Shown here one piece after another: positions 14,946-48,234 of a stretch of DNA of 64,000 nucleotides (within the stretch, counting starts at the first letter, position 1; every line of letters starts with the position of its first letter). The stretch lies in assembly GCA_008107755.1 (NCBI GenBank), contig VIRH01000093.1, positions 1-64,000 on the forward strand. The letters are read 5' to 3'. The notes below the pieces were generated by a model. That model had not been told where the DNA came from. It worked only from the letters and a program-made list of their open reading frames with translations, and made no database searches. The DNA comes from Rhodobacterales bacterium. Lineage in GTDB: Bacteria; Pseudomonadota; Alphaproteobacteria; Rhizobiales; Stappiaceae. A program made the translations under genes and the position numbers.

Positions 14946-17486
14946 TCACGTCGCCGTCTGGAACAGCGACGTGATCGTATCCTTGTCATAAGGTTTGCTG
15001 ATCCGGAAGACCTCCATCAGCTCCTTGGGACCGTCGACATCTTCGCCATAACCGGACGCGAACGCGAAGGGGACATTCATCTCCAGCAGGCGACTGGCGA
15101 TCCCGTAACTCGTTTCCGAGCCGAGATTGATGTCCAGAAGCGCGAAGTCGAACGGCCGTTCGCGACTGTCGATTTCCTCGTATGCTGCGTCCACGGTGGC
15201 GACGACGCTCACCTCCTCGGTGCCCAACCCACGGAATATATCCTCCGCGTCCATCGCAATGATGAGGTTGTCCTCGACGATAAGGACCGCCTGTGGTGCA
15301 TCGATCTTTTGAATGTCAGTCCTGCCTTTCTTTTCCGGAGCGACGAAATCGGCTTCTCCCAGGATCACAAACTCCTTCGGAATCCGAAACGATGCCTGGA
15401 CTCCCTCCGATGGATAGTCGATTGCCGCCTCACCCTTCAGTTCGAAGGGGACGGTGCGCTCGATGATTGTGGAGCCGAAGCCCCTGCGTTGCGGTGGCTT
15501 GACCGGTGGACCGCCGACATCCCTCCAGGCAATGTCGAGTCCATCGTCGTCATTGATGGTGAGGCCAATCTCCACCGTGCCATGCTGATCTGAAATCGCA
15601 CCGTATTTTGCCGAATTCGTGATCATCTCGTGCATCACCAGCGCCAGCGCCGAGAAAGCCGGTGGCGTCAGCAGGATCTGCGGGCCCGAAATGATGACCC
15701 GATCCTTCTTGTCCAGCAGGTAGCTTTCAGCTTCCGTTTCGATAAGACCGGAGAAGGAAGCCGGAGACCAGTTGTGCCGGGTGATCTGATCATGAGCGCG
15801 GGCAAGAGACTGAACACGACTGTCCAGCTTTCGCACGAATTCGGCTGTCGTGTCCGTGCCCGAATTGCTTTGCGAGATAAGGCCGCGCACGAGACCCAGG
15901 ATGTTTCTGACCCGGTGATTGAGTTCCGCGATCAGCAGTTCCTGCTTCTCGTTGGCGACCTTTCTCTGCCGCCCGGCTTCATCGGCCATGCGAAGCACGA
16001 CTTCCAGCAGCATGATGCGGAGCTGAGATGCGACCCTGAGATCGCCTGCCGTCCAGTCAGTGCTCTGCTCGCGCACGGTGACCTGCCAGGTCTCGAAGCT
16101 TTTTCGCGGTGTCAGCCGGGCACCGTTAGGGCCATAGGTTACCGGCTTTTCCGGATTGCCCGCCCACTTCACCTTGCGCTCCAGCTCTTCTCTGTAAAAG
16201 AGAATATAGTCGCGCGGTGACCGCGAGATCGGGATCGCCAGAACGCCCGCGGCGACACCCGGACCGCCGTCCCACCCGCCGACCAGCGCCGCGATGTGGT
16301 TCGTCGCGAAGACCTCGTTGCCCGGAAGCTTGTTGACCTCCTCACAAAGCGCAAGAATTCCGTCCTCATCCGGCGTCTTGCCGGAATTGAGAATGATGTC
16401 TTCCTGAACGACAGAGAAACCGTCCGCCTGCAGCACCTCACAGAACGCCTCCGCGGAAGAGCGAAGTAACTGAGGTGAAGATGAATTCGACGTCAGCGCG
16501 CGCGAAATTTCTGTGGTGAGTTGCGCGACCCGCGCGTCCTTTGATCTTTCCTCTTCGGCAAGTCGACTCTGCAGAACCAGGGACAGCATCTGCCCGAAAA
16601 GTAGCGCGCAATTGCGTGCGCGCATGCCGGGGACCAGAGGACTGTTGTGATGACAGGCAATCAGGCCCCACAGTTCTCCATGAAGGATGACGGAGATCGA
16701 CATGGAGGCTCCGACGCCCATGTTACGCAGATATTCCAGATGAATCGGAGACACCGACCGAAGCCGGCTGCCGGAAAGGTCGATCGGAACATCCGTCTCG
16801 GCCTTGTCGAGGTGCAGGACCGGCGCACCGTCTTCGTGAACATCCGCGATCAGCCGGATCGGATTTTCCAGATACAGCGCGCGGGCCTGTTTAGGGATAT
16901 CGGTCGCCGGATAGCGCAGGTTCAAAAAAGGTTCCATACCGTGACGCTTGGCTTCTGCAACGACCTCTCCGGAGCCGTCGGTCGCGAACTTGTAGAGCAT
17001 CACCCGGTCGAAGCCTGTTATCATCTTGATGAAGCGAACGGCCTGCGAATAGATCGAATTCACGTCAGGAAGCTCGGCCATCCGGTCGATTGCGTTGCGG
17101 ACGTTTGCCGTATCGTTGCTTTCGCCCTCGAGTGAGCGGGCTGGCTCGAACTCCAGGATAATATTGGTTTCCAGAGCATGGATCGAGACGTCGAAATGGT
17201 CGTCCACTCCCTCCAGCTTCAGGTCGTAGAGAACTTCAACGCCGCGGCGCGGCTGAAGAAACTGCAGCCGATTGCGTATCGCGTGAACGCTTTGTGCCGG
17301 AATGAAGTCGAGCGAGTGCTTCCCGAGCATTTCCTCGGGCGCGAACGGCAGGAAACCTGAAACATTGTCGGAAACATGCGAAATGAACCAGTCAGGCGTG
17401 ACCGCAACCAGAAAACCGAATGACTGGATCTTTCCTAGAAGATGGATCGGCTCGCGATCGCAGTTCGTAAGATCAACTTGTTCCAA
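14946..17486 (-). CDS. bphP: Bacteriophytochrome histidine kinase with C-terminal receiver
   Basis: Red/far-red photoreceptor, 846 aa. In order: an N-terminal PAS domain with the biliverdin-binding Cys9 (TNCDREPIH); a GAF domain with the DIP motif at 196-198 and pyrrole-contact histidines H249 and H279/H280; a PHY domain with the tongue motif PRKSF at 460-464; an HWE-family histidine kinase with H524 (ELNHRVRN), N-box MHEMITNSAKYGA and WRDVGGP (Asp where the family usually has Glu); and a receiver domain with phospho-acceptor D785. Its start overlaps the heme oxygenase gene by 14 bp. HWE kinases commonly feed the alphaproteobacterial general stress response; that link is inference here, supported by an EcfG-type promoter ahead of the operon. 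Confidence 0.95.
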   Translation of the reverse strand: MEQVDLTNCDREPIHLLGKIQSFGFLVAVTPDWFISHVSDNVSGFLPFAPEEMLGKHSLDFIPAQSVHAIRNRLQFLQPRRGVEVLYDLKLEGVDDHFDVSIHALETNIILEFEPARSLEGESNDTANVRNAIDRMAELPDVNSIYSQAVRFIKMITGFDRVMLYKFATDGSGEVVAEAKRHGMEPFLNLRYPATDIPKQARALYLENPIRLIADVHEDGAPVLHLDKAETDVPIDLSGSRLRSVSPIHLEYLRNMGVGASMSISVILHGELWGLIACHHNSPLVPGMRARNCALLFGQMLSLVLQSRLAEEERSKDARVAQLTTEISRALTSNSSSPQLLRSSAEAFCEVLQADGFSVVQEDIILNSGKTPDEDGILALCEEVNKLPGNEVFATNHIAALVGGWDGGPGVAAGVLAIPISRSPRDYILFYREELERKVKWAGNPEKPVTYGPNGARLTPRKSFETWQVTVREQSTDWTAGDLRVASQLRIMLLEVVLRMADEAGRQRKVANEKQELLIAELNHRVRNILGLVRGLISQSNSGTDTTAEFVRKLDSRVQSLARAHDQITRHNWSPASFSGLIETEAESYLLDKKDRVIISGPQILLTPPAFSALALVMHEMITNSAKYGAISDQHGTVEIGLTINDDDGLDIAWRDVGGPPVKPPQRRGFGSTIIERTVPFELKGEAAIDYPSEGVQASFRIPKEFVILGEADFVAPEKKGRTDIQKIDAPQAVLIVEDNLIIAMDAEDIFRGLGTEEVSVVATVDAAYEEIDSRERPFDFALLDINLGSETSYGIASRLLEMNVPFAFASGYGEDVDGPKELMEVFRISKPYDKDTITSLFQTAT

Positions 17487-18042
17487 ATGCCAGCTTCCTG
17501 TTGTGGTCGTGTTCCTGCAGCACCTTCAGGTAAACCTCAAAAAGCAGTCTTGCCGATTGTGCAGCCGTCTCGGTTGCGGTTGGCGAAAAATCCTGTTTCC
17601 CGAGCCACGTCAAGTAAGATTTCCACAGACTGCGCTCTCTCCCGTGGCGCAGGAACGCCGTTGGGTATTCCGAGCCGGAATTCTTGAGCAAAGAACTGAG
17701 ATGAGCCGCGCCGAGACGCGAGCCTTCCAATACGTAACAAATACCCGCAACTGAGGAATCGTCATTTAAAAAAGACATACTCGCCTGCGATGGCGGCGAC
17801 ATATCGAAGGCGTCCAGATCCTCCTTCAGCTGCTTGCCGCGCAAGCGCTCGGAGGCATCAGGCAACGTCTGAAATTCAGGCCTTTCGATGAGCCAGCTTT
17901 CGGCAGCCGGAATCACACTCGCGTGCATGTGCAGAAAACGCGAGTATCCCAACCGCGTCGAAATAGGGTGTTCGGAGACGGTCAGATCAAGTTGTTCGTG
18001 AAGGGGCGTCGTGGCTTCCCGTAACGCTTGAAGCAGCTGCAT
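17473..18042 (-). CDS. bphO: Biliverdin-producing heme oxygenase
   Basis: 189 aa. Cleaves heme to biliverdin, the chromophore of the adjacent phytochrome. The proximal histidine is visible in TTPLHEQLD (H15), and YVLEGSRLGA matches the distal-helix signature of phytochrome-linked heme oxygenases. It lies between the receiver gene (33-bp gap) and bphP (14-bp overlap), so chromophore enzyme and apoprotein are translated together. Confidence 0.92.
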   Translation of the reverse strand: MQLLQALREATTPLHEQLDLTVSEHPISTRLGYSRFLHMHASVIPAAESWLIERPEFQTLPDASERLRGKQLKEDLDAFDMSPPSQASMSFLNDDSSVAGICYVLEGSRLGAAHLSSLLKNSGSEYPTAFLRHGRERSLWKSYLTWLGKQDFSPTATETAAQSARLLFEVYLKVLQEHDHNRKLAFGTS

Positions 18043-18075
18043 GTGTCGAGTCCCGGCAAACCAGTCCGCTGAAAG

Positions 18076-18468
18076 TCAGTCGGACTTGAGTCGGGTAAAC
18101 GCGTTCTCGACTACATTCTGAAGAAGAAGAACATTCGACGGCTTCAACACCACCTGAGCATCACCGTAACGGCGTTTCAGGTCAACTCTGTCCGTGTTAC
18201 CGGTATGGAAAATGATCGGAACCTTCTTCTCGTACAGGGAATCCGCAAGCGGGTAGACCGCTCCATCCGCAAGATCAACATCCAGAACCGCGAGCTGAGG
18301 CTCTTCTGAAAGCGCACATGATCTAGCCTCCGCAACGGTCGCGAAGGGCCCGACAACTTCAAGCCCCATTCCCGCAAGAGCGTCCTCAAGCATCCACGCG
18401 ATGAGCGGCTCATCTTCGGCAACGATCACTTTTATCGGTTCTGGTGTGTCCATCAAGGATAACGACAT
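18076..18468 (-). CDS. Single-domain response regulator of the phytochrome operon
   Basis: 130 aa consisting of one receiver domain with no output domain. The acidic pocket is AEDEP, the phospho-acceptor is in AVLDVDL, and HTGN supplies the conserved Thr position and a K follows in VLKPS. The ATG at 18468 has GAGG 8 bases upstream and is preferred over the longer frame. It is first in an operon with bphO and bphP. A single-domain receiver beside an HWE photoreceptor kinase resembles the Caulobacter lovK/lovR pair, where LovR drains phosphate and dampens the stress response; this comparison is inference. Confidence 0.9.
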   Translation of the reverse strand: MSLSLMDTPEPIKVIVAEDEPLIAWMLEDALAGMGLEVVGPFATVAEARSCALSEEPQLAVLDVDLADGAVYPLADSLYEKKVPIIFHTGNTDRVDLKRRYGDAQVVLKPSNVLLLQNVVENAFTRLKSD

Positions 18469-18526
18469 ACATGGGCCTCGGCACAGATTTCGGTTGCGGT
18501 TGTTCTTTAGCACCCTCACCGATATC

Positions 18527-18551
18527 AACGTGAAAAGTTTAACCTAGTTCC
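18527..18551 (-). promoter_or_regulatory. EcfG-type promoter of the phytochrome operon
   Basis: On the minus strand GGAAC (18551-18547), 16 bases, CGTT (18530-18527): a perfect match to the EcfG (sigma-T/RpoE2) consensus. It lies about 60 bp upstream of the receiver gene start. Confidence 0.75.
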
Positions 18552-18603
18552 CTTGCAAATAAAAGTTTTTTCCAGAAAGCACAACTTTAATCACCGTTAA
18601 CAA

Positions 18604-18621
18604 TTACTAAGGAGTTACTAA
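18604..18621. repeat. Tandem TTACTAA direct repeat in the phytochrome promoter region
   Basis: TTACTAA occurs at 18604-18610 and 18615-18621, spaced 11 bases start to start (one helical turn). A related TTTAGTAG in opposite orientation is at 18667-18674. The whole gap 18529-18716 is unusually AT-rich for this genome. The spacing suits a dimeric regulator; which one is unknown. Confidence 0.5.
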
Positions 18622-18716
18622 ATAACAATATACGAAAGAAAGTCCTTAGTTTTGACGATACAAAAATTTAGTAGTTCCACAGTACTTCAAAAGCTAAGCA
18701 TCCTCGGGAAAAGCAC

Positions 18717-19472
18717 TTAGAGGAAGGGTCGGCACTCGGGAGGGCTGCTTTTCCAGCCAGAGATCCTTTGCAAACCTTCGATATCGAGAACCTCACAGCG
18801 ACTATCCATCCAGCGAATCAAATTCGACTGGACCAGTTTCCGCAACGTCTTGTTGGTATGAACCAGCGACAGGCCCAGCGTGTCTGCGACATGCGTCTGG
18901 GTGACCGGCAAAAGGCGATGTTCCGGAGCAAGTTCCTGCAGGTTCTCCACACGCTGATGGAGATAGGCAAGCAGATAGGCGGCGCGCTCCAGTGCGGTGC
19001 GGCGGCCGACGCTCAGGAGATGTTCGTCCAGAATCCGCTCCTCGCGCGCGGCGATCCACGTGACGTCATAGGCGAGCGAACCGAAGCGTTCCCATACGTC
19101 GGCGAGCCTGCTGCGTTCGAATACACACACTGTCAGCGGCGTTAGCGCTTCCACCGTGTGCTGCATTTCGCCAAGCAACGAGCCCTGGAGGCCGATCAGG
19201 TCGCCCGGCAGCACGTAATTCAGGATCTGACGCCGCCCGTCCTCCAGAACCTTGGACCGAAACGCCCACCCGGACAGAACCGTGTAGAGATGCGCACTGC
19301 GCGCGCCCTCCATCATCAGCGTCGCACCCGGGTTCACGGTGAACTCACCGGTCTTGAAGTTGCTGACGAACTCAAGCTCCTTGTCGTCGAATTCCCGGAA
19401 ATGGCTATTCGACCGCAAAGGGCAGCCCGAACAGGATATCCGGCCGATTTTTGGCTCTACTTGTTTGTTCAT
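18717..19472 (-). CDS. Crp/Fnr family transcriptional regulator
   Basis: 251 aa. An N-terminal cyclic-nucleotide-binding-like beta-roll (about residues 30-150) is followed by a C-terminal helix-turn-helix (THVADTLGLSLVHTNKTLRKL). Cysteines C14 and C17 (SCSGCPLRS) and C116 (LTVCVF) match three of the four FNR cluster ligands in position. The fourth Cys is absent; H24 lies near its expected place. The protein may therefore sense redox or oxygen in a modified way or have lost sensing. It lies upstream of the phytochrome operon on the same strand and may regulate it. Confidence 0.9.
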   Translation of the reverse strand: MNKQVEPKIGRISCSGCPLRSNSHFREFDDKELEFVSNFKTGEFTVNPGATLMMEGARSAHLYTVLSGWAFRSKVLEDGRRQILNYVLPGDLIGLQGSLLGEMQHTVEALTPLTVCVFERSRLADVWERFGSLAYDVTWIAAREERILDEHLLSVGRRTALERAAYLLAYLHQRVENLQELAPEHRLLPVTQTHVADTLGLSLVHTNKTLRKLVQSNLIRWMDSRCEVLDIEGLQRISGWKSSPPECRPFL

Positions 19473-42961: not shown

Positions 42962-43453
42962 TCAGTCCTGCTTGTCCTGACTATATCGTTCACCGACAGC
43001 ACCGACGATGGCAAGGACCACCACCACCAGGACCGTCGCGATCACCGCAAGGCCGAGTTGCCCGGCACCGCACGCCATGCCGACCGCACCGGCGAGCCAC
43101 ATCGACGCGCCTGTCGTCACGTTGCGGACGGTCCCGTTTCGCGAGAAGATCAGCCCAGCCGACAGGAAGGCAACGCCGGCCGTGACGGCTTCGACGAGCC
43201 TCAACGGATCTATTCGCTGCTCGTTCACATTACCGATCTGCAGTTCCGCCAGTTCCTGACTGATGAGAAGGAAGAGGCATGAGGCGAAGGCGATCAGCAT
43301 GTGCGTTCGAAGGCCTGCATCCTTTCCCCGCCCCTCACGCTCGAAGCCGATGACACCGCCGAGCGTGATCGCCGCCACCATCCGCAGCAGCACGATCGGG
43401 ATCGGCAGTGAACCGATATGGAGACGGAATTCGGAAAGGATGAGATCCAGCAT
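42962..43453 (-). CDS. MgtC/SapB family membrane protein
   Basis: 163 aa with four to five membrane helices. IGFEREGRGKDAGLRTHMLIA is the MgtC-family signature. These proteins support growth under low magnesium or acid and modulate the F-ATPase in some bacteria. The ATG at 43453 (MLDLILSEF) is preferred. Convergent with mcd (9 bp apart). A perfect EcfG-type promoter lies 73 bp upstream. Confidence 0.9.
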   Translation of the reverse strand: MLDLILSEFRLHIGSLPIPIVLLRMVAAITLGGVIGFEREGRGKDAGLRTHMLIAFASCLFLLISQELAELQIGNVNEQRIDPLRLVEAVTAGVAFLSAGLIFSRNGTVRNVTTGASMWLAGAVGMACGAGQLGLAVIATVLVVVVLAIVGAVGERYSQDKQD

Positions 43454-43525
43454 GCAAAAGCCCGGTGGTTTGAAAATTGATCGAGCGGCCGGCATTCCTC
43501 CGAATGCTCCGCTCCAGACAGGAAA

Positions 43526-43550
43526 AACGCACCGGTTGAGCGGAAGTTCC
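43526..43550 (-). promoter_or_regulatory. EcfG-type promoter of the mgtC-like gene
   Basis: Minus strand GGAAC (43550-43546), 16 bases, CGTT (43529-43526). It stands back to back with the next site on the other strand. Confidence 0.7.
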
Positions 43551-43583
43551 TGAGGCCCGCGGCAACTCGTCCCAAAGAGGCGT

Positions 43584-43607
43584 GGAACAGATCATCTTCG
43601 TCGCCGT
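43584..43607 (+). promoter_or_regulatory. EcfG-type promoter of the host-attachment gene
   Basis: GGAAC (43584-43588), 15-16 bases, CGTT (43604-43607; the spacing is one base less certain by count). About 40 bp upstream of the gene start. Confidence 0.7.
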
Positions 43608-43645
43608 TGTTATCAGGTAGAGCAAAGACATAAGGGAGACCTGAG

Positions 43646-44104
43646 ATGAACGGAACGCATCAGCTCAAGCACAATGGCTGGGTCGTCGTCGCAGACGGCT
43701 CTAAGGCGCTGTTCCTGCGCAACGAAGGGGACGAGAAGTTTCCCAATCTCGAAGTCTTCCGCAAGGAAGAGCAGGAGAACCCGCCGACTCATGAGCAGGG
43801 CACAGACAAGCCTGGTCGGTTCAATGACGGTCCGCAGGTTCATCGAAGCGCGGTGGCAGAGACGGACTGGCACCAGCTGGCGGAAGAGAATTTCGCGTCC
43901 GACCTTGCAGACATTCTCTACAAGCGCGCGCACAAGGGCGATTTCGACAAGATGATCCTGGTGGCCGCGCCGTCGGTCCTCGGACAGGTCCGCAAGCAGC
44001 TTCACAAGGAAGTCGCGGATCGCGTCGTCGCTGAAATCGACAAGGACCTGACCAACCATCCTGTCGACCAGATCGAAAAGCTGGTTCTGGGCGAGCCGAG
44101 CTGA
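43646..44104 (+). CDS. Host attachment family protein (PF10116)
   Basis: 152 aa. WVVVADGSKALFLRNEGD at the N-terminus, a HEQGTDKPGRFND middle and DKMILVAAPSVLGQVRKQL near the C-terminus match the host-attachment/AtsE-like family, an eRF1-domain-3-like fold. The name comes from Agrobacterium attachment work; many members behave as stress-induced proteins. Likely co-transcribed with exoD. Confidence 0.9.
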   Translation: MNGTHQLKHNGWVVVADGSKALFLRNEGDEKFPNLEVFRKEEQENPPTHEQGTDKPGRFNDGPQVHRSAVAETDWHQLAEENFASDLADILYKRAHKGDFDKMILVAAPSVLGQVRKQLHKEVADRVVAEIDKDLTNHPVDQIEKLVLGEPS

Positions 44105-44141
44105 GGACAGGCGTCAGACAACAGGAAAGCGGACGGAAATC

Positions 44142-44741
44142 TTGCAGCGTGTGAACGAGAGCCAGGACGACATCCATTCGCTGGGTGAGGTCATCGACCG
44201 GACATGCGAAGTCGCCCGGCGAAAGGAAGTGTCCGTTGGGCACATTCTCGGAGCGTTCGGTCAGGCCGGATTTCCGCCGCTTCTGTTTGTCCCGGCGCTT
44301 GCCGTCGTGACGCCGCTCAGCGGCATTCCGGCCTTTTCGAGCCTCTGCGGCATCATGATCTTCCTGATTGCCGGGCAATGGATGATCGGACGCACCAGGG
44401 TCTGGATACCGCGCTGGCTCAGGACCCGGAGATTGAGCGGCGCCAGGCTGCGCGAAGCGATCGAGAAGGTACGTCCGGCTGCAGACTGGCTCGACCGACA
44501 TTCCAGAAAGCGGCTTCGCTTCCTGTTTCATCGCCCATTACGATATCTGCTGCCGGTCACCTGCATGATGTTCGGCGCGATGATGCCACTGCTCGAATTC
44601 GTGCCGTTCTCATCGTCATTTCTGGGCGCTGCAGTTTGCCTGATAGCGTTTTCCCTGATCACCCGCGACGGACTTTACGCCCTGATCGCACTTGTGCCCG
44701 TGGGCGGTGTCATCTGGATGGTAAGCTATCTCATCAGATAG
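44142..44741 (+). CDS. exoD: ExoD family exopolysaccharide synthesis protein
   Basis: 199 aa with four predicted membrane helices and the ExoD domain (LGAFGQAGFPPLLFVPALAVV, then SGIPAFSSLCGIMIFLIA). ExoD mutants of Sinorhizobium have altered exopolysaccharide and alkali sensitivity. The start is TTG at 44142 with GGA-rich sequence upstream, or GTG at 44151. It lies 37 bp after the host-attachment gene, probably in one stress operon. Confidence 0.88.
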   Translation: MQRVNESQDDIHSLGEVIDRTCEVARRKEVSVGHILGAFGQAGFPPLLFVPALAVVTPLSGIPAFSSLCGIMIFLIAGQWMIGRTRVWIPRWLRTRRLSGARLREAIEKVRPAADWLDRHSRKRLRFLFHRPLRYLLPVTCMMFGAMMPLLEFVPFSSSFLGAAVCLIAFSLITRDGLYALIALVPVGGVIWMVSYLIR

Positions 44742-44757
44742 ATCTGTGACCGCGCCC

Positions 44758-45792
44758 TCAGACAGCGAATGCCTGGATGGCAATGGCGCCACCATAAATG
44801 GCCAGCAAACTGACGCTTTCGAAGCCGATCCCGCCCGGCCCGGATTTCTGGCGAACGATCAACCCGGTCAACAGAACACCCGTCATCAGCACACCTGTCG
44901 CTAGCCAGAACAGGTCGTCACGACCGATGGCGTGGTAGAGTGAGCCCTCACCATAGGCCACGTCTGACAGTGTCAGGAACAGTGTGTCGAAGGTATTGCC
45001 ACCGATAATGCCGCCGATCGCAAGCTGAAGGGCGCCCCTGTGAACAGCGGCAAGTGTCGTGACCAGTTCCGGGAGCGAGGTGACGACCGCCGTCATCAAC
45101 GCGCCGATGAGCGACGCTGACAGGCTGTAGCGATCCGTCAGGACGCTGGCGACCTGAGCGATCGCCCAGCCCATCAGGCCCATCACCACCATCAACACCG
45201 TAAAGACCGTGAAGAGCCGGATGTTTCCTGCAAAATCCGAAGTCTCCTCCTCCGGCTCGTCGTGCTGGGTCTCATGCGTCCCCACAGGCTTCCACATCGG
45301 TTCTTCGCGCACCTTTTTGGATGCACGCACGCCAATCAAGTAGACCGCCACAAGAACGAGCGAGGCGGGATGAACGCCGAAGAATGCCGTCTCCGGAGCG
45401 GCATAGGCGAAGATCGGAATGCTGAGCAGAAGCACCAGAAGCGCGCATTGAAAGACGATCGCAAGGTCCGCCGCCGCGTGCTCCAGGTTCGCCTTTCGCC
45501 AGATGATATCCGCAAACGCCAGGAAAGCGGTCTGTGCCGCGATGCCGCCAACGGCATTCGAGAACGCCAGCGAAACACGGCCGTCCAGTGCGGCGGTCAC
45601 CGAAACGACGGTCCCGGACAGCGACGTTGCCGCCCCCAAGAGGATGCCCCCCACCAGAGCCTCCCCCAGGCCCGTCCGGTCGGCAATCCGGTCCGCAAGG
45701 CCGGTCATCCGGATGCCACAGACCAGGATGACGAGCCCGGCAACTGCAAAAATCGCCAGAAGTCCCCAAAGTGGCAGTGATCCGAACAACAT
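44758..45792 (-). CDS. CaCA family cation antiporter
   Basis: 344 aa with about ten membrane helices and two alpha-repeats: GEALVGGILLGAATSLSGTV with SNAVGGIAAQTAF, and GALMTAVVTSLPELVTTLAA with GGIIGGNTFDTLF, as in sodium/calcium exchangers. The second repeat has the typical TSLPE acidic residue; the first reads TSLSG instead. An acidic loop (DEPEEETSD) separates the halves. The ATG at 45792 has AAGGA upstream. Ion specificity is unknown. Confidence 0.88.
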   Translation of the reverse strand: MLFGSLPLWGLLAIFAVAGLVILVCGIRMTGLADRIADRTGLGEALVGGILLGAATSLSGTVVSVTAALDGRVSLAFSNAVGGIAAQTAFLAFADIIWRKANLEHAAADLAIVFQCALLVLLLSIPIFAYAAPETAFFGVHPASLVLVAVYLIGVRASKKVREEPMWKPVGTHETQHDEPEEETSDFAGNIRLFTVFTVLMVVMGLMGWAIAQVASVLTDRYSLSASLIGALMTAVVTSLPELVTTLAAVHRGALQLAIGGIIGGNTFDTLFLTLSDVAYGEGSLYHAIGRDDLFWLATGVLMTGVLLTGLIVRQKSGPGGIGFESVSLLAIYGGAIAIQAFAV

Positions 45793-45886
45793 GAAATTTT
45801 CCTTTTGCCCCAGCGCCTTGCGAATAACTTGAGTGATTACCACCCGAATTTCCGGCAGTTTTCTGCGGTTCCCTCACCCCAATCCG

Positions 45887-45911
45887 GGAACATGTCCGCC
45901 TGACGAGCGTT
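45887..45911 (+). promoter_or_regulatory. EcfG-type promoter of the 54-aa gene
   Basis: GGAAC (45887-45891), 16 bases, CGTT (45908-45911). It lies 64 bp upstream of the small ORF at 45975 and points only at it. Confidence 0.7.
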
Positions 45912-45974
45912 AGCATCTCAAGAGAGCGCTGACGCCCTCGGAATGACATTGGCCACTCAACGAATGAGGCGGAA

Positions 45975-46139
45975 ATGATCTATCACGGGTTTCACTACGA
46001 ACCGCGCAAGGCTCCTGCGATCGATGGTTCCGATGCCGGATACGTCTCCACACTGCGCCATTCGCGTCTTTTCATAGGGTTCGGGTTAAGCGGATTGATC
46101 CTCGCCCTGATCGCAGTGATTTTCCTGTTTATCTATTGA
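45975..46139 (+). CDS. Small single-pass membrane protein (54 aa)
   Basis: A short gene that length cut-offs would miss. It reads MIYHGFHYEPRKAPAIDG, continues to RHSRLFIGFG, and ends in one hydrophobic helix (about residues 33-54, LSGLILALIAVIFLFIY). AGGCGG precedes the ATG, a perfect EcfG-type promoter is upstream and a hairpin lies after the stop. No family is recognised. The stress promoter suggests a membrane stress role. Confidence 0.75.
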   Translation: MIYHGFHYEPRKAPAIDGSDAGYVSTLRHSRLFIGFGLSGLILALIAVIFLFIY

Positions 46140-46149
46140 GGCCATGAAA

Positions 46150-46188
46150 TGACCCGACCCGGGGATTGTCGATCCTCGGGCCGGGTCA
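46150..46188 (+). terminator. Hairpin after the 54-aa gene
   Basis: TGACCCG pairs with CGGGTCA, with inner CCCG/CGGG and GGA/TCC, about 14 paired positions with two mismatches. There is no T run, so it may be a weak terminator or a stabilising 3' hairpin. Confidence 0.5.
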
Positions 46189-46196
46189 TGCATGTC

Positions 46197-46235
46197 GAAA
46201 ACCCGGCAACCGAGCGCCGCTCAGGTTGCCGGGTC
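46197..46235 (-). terminator. Intrinsic terminator of the glycine-zipper gene
   Basis: ACCCGGCAACC (46201-46211) pairs with GGTTGCCGGGT (46224-46234). On the minus strand the stem is followed by TTTT. Confidence 0.8.
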
Positions 46236-46240
46236 AATCT

Positions 46241-46501
46241 TTAGCGGCAGTTCGCCACGTACTCGCGGCCATACTGGTCGCGGTAGACACATTTGCCTGG
46301 CTCGGTCGCACGGCCGACAAGCGCGCCAGCTGCAGCGCCCACCGCACCGCCAACCAGGGCACCTTGCGCGTTACCGGTCGCAGCGGCACCGATCGCGGCA
46401 CCACCGGCGCCACCGACAACGGCGCCCCGCTGCGTATTGTTGCAGGCCGTGAGCCCCGTCAGACCGACGATAGCCGCCGCCACAAGTACTTTCTTCAGCA
46501 T
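46241..46501 (-). CDS. Glycine-zipper lipoprotein
   Basis: 86 aa. N-terminal signal peptide with lipobox LTAC (LTGLTACNN), then a glycine-zipper membrane segment (VVGGAGGAAIGAAATGNAQG, ending ALVGRA) and a C-terminal YRDQYGREYVANC tail. Similar to small outer-membrane stress lipoproteins (Gly-zipper/YMGG families). The ATG at 46501 has AGGGAG upstream. An EcfG-type promoter lies 35 bp upstream. Confidence 0.9.
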   Translation of the reverse strand: MLKKVLVAAAIVGLTGLTACNNTQRGAVVGGAGGAAIGAAATGNAQGALVGGAVGAAAGALVGRATEPGKCVYRDQYGREYVANCR

Positions 46502-46535
46502 CTCGTTCTCCCTGGGTTCAAATGCATGGGGGTAC

Positions 46536-46561
46536 AACGAAACCACCCTGACAAAAGTTCC
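46536..46561 (-). promoter_or_regulatory. EcfG-type promoter of the glycine-zipper gene
   Basis: Minus strand GGAAC (46561-46557), 17 bases, CGTT (46539-46536). Confidence 0.7.
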
Positions 46562-46679
46562 AGCGGATTTTTTCGGATGGTCATGGGCCCTGCTCCAGTT
46601 ACTTCAAGCCTGCCATCGATCATCAGATCTGTCGGCAAGATCGCACGCTGACAAGGTTGAAAATCGGGCGCCTCGATTC

Positions 46680-46704
46680 GGAACCGATGTTTGAGTCAGG
46701 CGTT
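46680..46704 (+). promoter_or_regulatory. EcfG-type promoter of the PRC-barrel gene
   Basis: GGAAC (46680-46684), 16 bases, CGTT (46701-46704). The gene begins about 93 bp downstream. Confidence 0.7.
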
Positions 46705-46796
46705 TCCAGAGGGAACGGGTGCGAGAGAGCCTTCCCGGGCCTCCGCCTCAAAGACAATTCATTCGAACGGTCCCAGAGACCAAGGGAGGGCTCAAC

Positions 46797-47192
46797 GTGC
46801 TCCGCAAGATCTTGGCATCCATCGCTTTCGCCGCTGTCATGACAGCAGGCACCGCTTACGCGCAGGACAAGACTGTCGACCAGACGTCCGTCTCCGCTCA
46901 GGAGCTCATCGGCGTGAAAGTTGTCGACACGCAGAAGCAGGAAATCGGAGCAGTGTCGGATATCATCCTGGGGGCGGGCGAAGACAACGTTAAAGCCTTT
47001 ATCGTCAACCTCACCGGCGAGGAAACCGGCAAAAAGCAGATGGCCTTCGCCGCGACTGGACTGGATATCTACAAGAACCAGCAGGGTGAGTTGACGGTCT
47101 ATTCCAACGTCACGCGCGAGATGCTGGAAGCCATGCCGGCCTACGACAAGGCATCCTTCACCAAAGACCCGGACAGCGTTCTGGTCAAGTAG
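46797..47192 (+). CDS. Secreted PRC-barrel domain protein
   Basis: 131 aa. Signal peptide (cleavage near AYA/QDK), then a PRC-barrel domain (ELIGVKVVDTQKQEIGAVSDIILG, FIVNLTGEE, AFAATGLDIYKN). The start is GTG at 46797 with AAGGGAGG upstream. Periplasmic PRC-barrel proteins are common general-stress-regulon members in Rhizobiales; the molecular role is unknown. Confidence 0.88.
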   Translation: MLRKILASIAFAAVMTAGTAYAQDKTVDQTSVSAQELIGVKVVDTQKQEIGAVSDIILGAGEDNVKAFIVNLTGEETGKKQMAFAATGLDIYKNQQGELTVYSNVTREMLEAMPAYDKASFTKDPDSVLVK

Positions 47193-47292
47193 TCGGCGGG
47201 ATGGCGCCTAAGGCAGAGGCCAAGCCCCCCACTCCATCGCTCCAAGACTTCACGTCGGCGACACGTCGACACCAGCTGCAGGAAAACAGACC

Positions 47293-47541
47293 ATGTCCAG
47301 CCACACAAGAGACAGGATCGCTGCTGTTCTGAAAGATGACAGCCGCAGCAAGCAGGACCGGATCGAAGAACTGCTGACAATGCGTGAGGACGCTCGTGCC
47401 CTCCAGAGGGCAGGTACGGAAAGTCCCATGAATGAAGACGAGGACGAGTCGAACGGATTGCAGGACATCGACCGTGCTCTCGAAAAACTCGGCTACGACG
47501 AAGTCCCCGAAGCCGATGAAGACAGCGCCGCAACGCTTTGA
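47293..47541 (+). CDS. Small acidic protein of unknown function
   Basis: 82 aa, very acidic in the C-terminal half (NEDEDESN, VPEADEDS), with a helical N-terminal half rich in Arg/Lys/Glu (KQDRIEELLTMREDARALQRA). AGGA lies ahead of the ATG. It sits 100 bp after the PRC-barrel gene and may share its transcript. No family recognised. Confidence 0.7.
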   Translation: MSSHTRDRIAAVLKDDSRSKQDRIEELLTMREDARALQRAGTESPMNEDEDESNGLQDIDRALEKLGYDEVPEADEDSAATL

Positions 47542-47582
47542 GCGAGCTTCTTGCTCAGGAGTTTCCGATTAAGACACACTGA

Positions 47583-47714
47583 TCTGGTCCGGGCATCGTT
47601 ACCTCCAAAATGGAACGACCCTCACGCCCATGAATGGACCAGACCAGGTGGGAGCCGTCACCTTAGAAGTGATGCTCCGAAAAAGGGCCGCGTGCGCTGC
47701 ACGCGGCCTTTTTC
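47583..47714 (+). ncRNA. Candidate structured small RNA with intrinsic terminator
   Basis: Three hairpins follow one another with no good ORF. Hairpin 1: TCTGGTCC (47583-47590) with GGACCAGA (47636-47643), enclosing GGGC/GCCC and a TCGTT/AACGA stem whose loop exposes CCTCC (47602-47606), an anti-Shine-Dalgarno sequence. Hairpin 2: GGAGC/GCTCC with TCAC/GTGA (47651-47678). Hairpin 3 is the terminator at 47680-47714. The architecture resembles trans-acting sRNAs of Rhizobiales. I could not match it to a named family. The promoter is not clear. Confidence 0.6.
47680..47714. terminator. Strong intrinsic terminator
   Basis: GCCGCGTGC pairs with GCACGCGGC around a three-base loop, with A-rich sequence before and TTTTT after the stem. 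It ends the sRNA candidate and isolates the DUF1232 gene. Confidence 0.85.
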
Positions 47715-47859
47715 GCATATCGGTCAATGACGTAGCCCGATCAACCTTCTGCCCTTACGCGGGAAGAAACCACGCGAGAGAATTGCGAAAGTCGCAAATT
47801 ATTGAATTCGGCCCTGGCCGGACCTATTTAATGAGGGAACCAGATTGAGGGAGTTCTTC

Positions 47860-48234
47860 GTGGACAGAACATTTGAAGACCTCGGCTTTGATCCGGAAAT
47901 TCTGGGCCCCGAAGACGAGCAAAAGAAATCGGTTCGCCAAAAGCTGATGGCGACCCTGAAGAAGGCTGCGCGACAGGTTCCTTTCATGGAAGACGTCGTC
48001 GCAGGCTATTATTGTGCCCTGGATCCGGCAACGCCGAAGAAGGTGCGCGGGACCGCGCTGGCGGCTCTCGCCTATTTCGTTCTTCCAATCGACGTGATCC
48101 CCGATTTCATTATCGGAATCGGTTTCGGTGACGATGCCACGATTCTTCTGGCAACGATCAGCATGATCCGCGCACATCTGCGCCCGGACCACTACGAAGC
48201 CGCGCGCGAGGCGCTGAAGGACGGCGATCTGTAA
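47860..48234 (+). CDS. YkvA family protein (DUF1232)
   Basis: 124 aa. RGTALAALAYFVLPIDVIPDFI is the DUF1232 signature, with one or two membrane helices. The start is taken as GTG at 47860 because GAGGGAG lies 6 bases upstream; a TTG at 47845 is an alternative. Function unknown; often in stress regulons. Confidence 0.88.
   Translation: MDRTFEDLGFDPEILGPEDEQKKSVRQKLMATLKKAARQVPFMEDVVAGYYCALDPATPKKVRGTALAALAYFVLPIDVIPDFIIGIGFGDDATILLATISMIRAHLRPDHYEAAREALKDGDL

Follow-up and report, generated by a model that had tools for sequence, protein, structure and literature searches.

On a Roseibium contig, three minus-strand genes for, in this order, a single-domain receiver, a heme oxygenase and a bacteriophytochrome form an operon that very probably belongs to the EcfG general-stress regulon, as suggested by an EcfG-type promoter that is kept in its relatives. 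We also lean towards a fuller model, in which this EcfG-driven phytochrome operon feeds back to PhyR.

The operon and its promoter

The operon lies in the window, by which we mean the whole stretch of 64,000 nucleotides that was analysed, and its features are summarized in Table 1. The genome is Roseibium-like: among named loci, those of Stappia sp. BW2 and Roseibium aggregatum were nearest, and the genomes that matched belong to one and the same genus. Pfam agreed with the initial annotation for all three genes, including the HWE kinase type of the phytochrome and the receiver that it carries itself. The phytochrome and heme oxygenase genes overlap by 14 bp, and a gap of 33 bp separates the heme oxygenase gene from that of the receiver. 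The start given to the latter by the ORF finder (TTG 18528; Response_reg reading frame 18076-18528) was rejected because it falls within the promoter, and the gene starts instead at ATG 18468 (MSLSL...), a start kept in two relatives.

Table 1. Features of the phytochrome operon and perfect EcfG-type sites elsewhere in the window
Feature	Position	Strand	Evidence or remark
Phytochrome, PAS_2-GAF-PHY-HWE_HK-Response_reg	14946-17486	-	Pfam
Heme_oxygenase gene, source of biliverdin chromophore	17473-18042	-	Pfam
Single-domain receiver (Response_reg)	18076-18468	-	Pfam; start codon conserved; alignment
EcfG-type promoter GGAAC-N16-CGTT, GGAACTAGGTTAAACTTTTCACGTT	18527-18551	-	exact match; conserved; enriched in 119 loci
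Near match GGAAC-N16-CGTC, GGAACTACTAAATTTTTGTATCGTC	18654-18678	-	one mismatch; no counterpart in relatives
Crp/Fnr-family regulator (crp), upstream co-directional neighbour	18717-19472	-	Pfam; tblastn; tree
Perfect EcfG-type site	43526	-	ahead of MgtC-family gene
Perfect EcfG-type site	43584	+	ahead of baeRF12/host-attachment and ExoD genes
Perfect EcfG-type site	45887	+	no obvious target
Perfect EcfG-type site	46680	+	ahead of PRC-barrel gene

The perfect EcfG-type promoter that had been noted ahead of the operon was confirmed as an exact match, with the -35 element at 18547-18551 and the -10 element at 18527-18530, about 59 bp ahead of the receiver ATG, and a leader of about 50 nt would be expected. 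In any one stretch of 60 bp, a perfect site would occur by chance on a given strand with a probability of about 3e-4. The near match further upstream, which had been proposed as a second site, was not conserved and was rejected as probably due to chance; the window contains 33 sites with one mismatch to the motif, against 16.7 expected. In the whole genome there were 97 perfect sites and 66 matches to the reversed control pattern, so that about two thirds of the perfect sites may be fortuitous, and this count was too weak to serve as proof. Four of the perfect sites belong to a second cluster in the window (42962-48234), which looks like a cluster of stress genes.

The comparison of relatives was more informative. 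Among four distinct loci with the order receiver, heme oxygenase and phytochrome (the window, Stappia BW2, R. aggregatum and Rhizobiales AFS011520), all four have the perfect site at the equivalent position. The spacers of the window and AFS011520 have diverged, those of Stappia BW2 and R. aggregatum are similar to each other, and one of the four loci (L062) has unrelated flanks yet keeps the site. We then counted the motif GGAAC-N16/17-[CG]GTT across 119 loci of HWE phytochromes and found it in 19, compared with a mean of 0.62 and a maximum of 4 in shuffled sequences. The reversed pattern gave 3 and the antisense strand 7; the loci are related and the counts are therefore not independent, although several separate lineages are counted among them. 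The frequency differed with the first gene of the operon, being 4/4 for the receiver, 13/62 for heme oxygenase and 2/53 for the phytochrome. All 14 further loci of heme oxygenase and phytochrome from a genus of large rhizobial genomes also have the motif, nearly always 124-145 bp ahead of heme oxygenase. Nearly all of the rhizobial loci of this type have a perfect site about 125 bp ahead of heme oxygenase (L123, L128, L130, L133, L134, L138, L139, L157 and L216-L230); the exception is L219, whose stretch contains no heme oxygenase.

The conservation and the enrichment thus speak well for the EcfG control that the initial annotation had predicted for the operon. The contrary reading, that the motif is fortuitous and that transcription of the operon relies on a different promoter or on read-through of crp, agrees with the expected share of chance matches in the genome and with the orientation of crp, which is co-directional and has no terminator-like site that we could find between it and the operon. 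However, it does not account for a site kept in all four loci, even between unrelated flanks, and enriched over the larger set, and our search for a sigma-70-like site for the operon found none; we regard this reading as very improbable.

The photosensory kinase and its receivers

The phytochrome has a PAS-GAF-PHY photosensor in Pfam and alignment, with the chromophore Cys in its N-terminus (LTNCDREPIH) and the DIP motif (PATDIP). The HWE_HK domain matched at 7.5e-21, and the match to the C-terminal Response_reg domain (5.5e-5) is under the curated Pfam cut-off, with the receiver residues present in the alignment. The closest solved structure is 6g1y, which we take to be Agp2, a bathy phytochrome. 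The window phytochrome has Leu where 6g1y has Gln, six residues ahead of the Asp of DIP, and with this difference in the pocket we do not conclude a bathy type from the likeness to Agp2. Bathy phytochromes have been interpreted as sensors of near-infrared light or of light versus dark (PMC11021371, PMC12582566). The operon had been called a red-light counterpart of the blue-light systems, and this is unproven because neither the spectral type (canonical or bathy) nor the sign of the response can be read from the sequence; red as the input colour is a guess.

The domain order is the same as in Agp2-type bacteriophytochromes, and an HWE kinase with a C-terminal receiver has been described for phytochromes of Agrobacterium and Allorhizobium (PMC11021371), but unlike these, the window phytochrome is encoded together with a single-domain receiver, in an operon that has an EcfG-type promoter. 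The latter receiver has the Asp, Thr and Lys of a receiver that should be phosphorylatable.

In combining a photosensory kinase of the HWE family with a single-domain receiver, the operon resembles LovK/LovR of Caulobacter and LOVHK/LovR/PhyR of Brucella. Brucella LOV-HK phosphorylates both PhyR and LovR, and the PhyR dependence of lovR in that organism is a likeness to the stress-regulon promoter of the Roseibium operon (PMC4438053). The only non-phytochrome matches of the phytochrome kinase domain in the PDB were likewise to Brucella LOV-HK. In contrast to LovK and LOVHK, which are LOV proteins with flavin, the sensor here is a phytochrome with bilin, the kinase has its own C-terminal receiver and the operon includes a heme oxygenase. 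We suggest that the operon acts in the manner of LovK/LovR modules, its sensor being a phytochrome; membership in that family would depend on a putative phosphotransfer to PhyR or effect on EcfG activity, for which the evidence is that of gene neighbourhood.

A second comparison is with Sphingomonas melonis, whose kinases, such as Pak, reach PhyR through the single-domain receiver SdrG and the phosphotransferase PhyT (PMC5898713). The shared features are kinases with the HRxxN motif of PhyR-activating HWE/HisKA_2 kinases, which reads HRVRN in the window phytochrome, a single-domain receiver and an HWE protein at the phyR locus. Unlike SdrG, the single-domain receiver of the operon does not have the FAT GUY motif PFxFATG[G/Y] and reads PIIFHTGNT in the alignment, and it is the receiver of the phytochrome itself (PFAFASGYG) that is one change away from this motif. 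Beyond the His, the H-box of the phytochrome (HRVRNILGLVRGLISQ) is unlike that of the kinase adjacent to phyR (HRSKNLLAVIQAMARQ) at several positions, and it differs also from that of LOV-HK (HRFKNSMAMVQSIANQ).

Phytochromes, the stress core and the neighbouring crp gene

The host genome has a complete phyR-nepR-ecfG locus, to which the phytochrome operon is not linked. In 13 genomes from about five lineages, however, the distance between a phytochrome gene of this kind and nepR/ecfG is 3-19 kb. It is 7-14 kb in six Novosphingobium, about 14-15 kb in three Erythrobacteraceae, 11-12 kb in G109 and G357, 18.7 kb in G796 and 3 kb in G273. Both genes were seen on one stretch except in G796, where they are on the same contig. 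For linkage within 20 kb, a limit that was picked after the data had been seen, about 0.4-1 lineages would be expected by chance, and the probability of at least five linked lineages is roughly 4e-5 to 3e-3, the range being set by how many genomes are counted as independent. The most compact case is G273 (L231 1-8609), in which heme oxygenase, phytochrome, receiver, HWE kinase, PhyR, NepR, EcfG and crp are found within 8.6 kb. Three further cases of nearness of nepR to a phytochrome (L054, L036 and L058), suggested by coordinates alone, were rejected, as the stretches concerned (L212, L214 and L215) hold ecfG and no phytochrome.

In the tree, the crp gene next to the Roseibium operons clustered (support 98/97) with those that immediately follow nepR-ecfG in genomes resembling Hoeflea, and was separate from Roseibium's own crp paralogue near the stress locus. 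Most crp paralogues of Roseibium (L239-L248 and L250) have a neighbouring receiver gene whose product is 36-41% identical to the phytochrome receiver domain, and they are about 8-9 kb from nepR where nepR was located.

Similar phytochromes with receivers were also found in three gammaproteobacterial genomes without NepR (L057, L061 and L063), and therefore this class of sensor can work without the NepR stress system. A few alphaproteobacterial genomes carrying similar phytochromes gave no NepR match either. Two Methylocystis genomes (L065 and L085) had an unusual multiplicity of NepR matches, nine and five, respectively.

These observations bear on the possibility that the operon is purely an output, EcfG increasing the level of a light sensor whose signal goes elsewhere, to a diguanylate cyclase, motility or adhesion, with no return to PhyR. 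The phytochrome BPHP-15570 of Erythrobacter (Qipengyuania) flavus, encoded like ours with a heme oxygenase and having HK and REC domains, has been reported to act on c-di-GMP by activating the diguanylate cyclase DGC-0450 under infrared light (PMC12172448). Its homologue in Q. flava DSM 16421 (L050) is 44% identical to the window phytochrome and shares the residue numbering of BPHP-15570 (H524 and D742) in the alignment; its operon has no receiver gene, and no EcfG motif was found ahead of it. In L050, D742 is part of an acidic pair (VEDS) where the receiver begins and is not the usual phospho-acceptor Asp, so that the published D742G may not directly test phosphorylation of the latter. A purely output role is in accord with this precedent, with the divergent H-box and with the same kinase type in Gammaproteobacteria without NepR, but it leaves unexplained why phytochromes of this kind are repeatedly linked to the stress core, in about five lineages, and why a stress-locus type crp lies beside the operon, and it seems to us somewhat unlikely. 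The phytochrome input to the stress response that had been proposed in the initial annotation is thus upheld in part, by the genes found near such phytochromes in other lineages and by the crp next to the operon, and may be weakened by the differing H-box.

Control of photosynthesis genes, as by phytochromes in some phototrophic rhizobia, with the stress promoter as a mere boost, was also considered. The host has pufL- and pufM-like genes on its contig C87 (two reaction-centre genes, PF00124, at G000 C87:85789-87470) and is probably an aerobic anoxygenic phototroph. However, the operon and the puf genes are on different contigs, and two relatives that share the operon do not have reaction-centre genes; this as the main role is disfavoured and appears highly unlikely.

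Proposed feedback and its meaning

In the model that we favour, EcfG-RNA polymerase would transcribe the receiver, heme oxygenase and phytochrome genes together, as the promoter supports, and a stressed cell would therefore contain more light sensor and more chromophore. The phytochrome would autophosphorylate under light control, as is established for the family, and both its own receiver and the single-domain receiver would take up the phosphate. The single-domain receiver could be a phosphate sink, the role proposed for LovR, or could relay the phosphate onwards, as SdrG has been shown to do. The phosphorylation of PhyR, and hence the activity of EcfG, would then be altered directly or through the HWE protein adjacent to phyR, which would close the loop. 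The indirect route is possible because the S. melonis kinases use SdrG and PhyT, and in the host genome, too, phyR adjoins the gene of an HWE protein (L185:3324-5126) that has an ETR1-like membrane domain.

LOV kinases are an established route by which blue light acts on the alphaproteobacterial general stress response, and long-wavelength light may feed this response in much the same way. A literature search, with subscription journals largely outside its scope, found no paper linking bacteriophytochromes with EcfG, PhyR or NepR. We tentatively put forward that phytochromes could be a recurrent photosensory input of this stress response, signalling to PhyR through receiver intermediates, and that EcfG control or adjacency to phyR-nepR-ecfG could have been gained several times independently. 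Novosphingobium with the linked loci and the large rhizobial genus with EcfG-type promoters are candidate organisms for its study. The operon supplies a testable partner pathway for HWE phytochromes, and a recurrent phytochrome input, if true, would give the general stress response a long-wavelength light gate.
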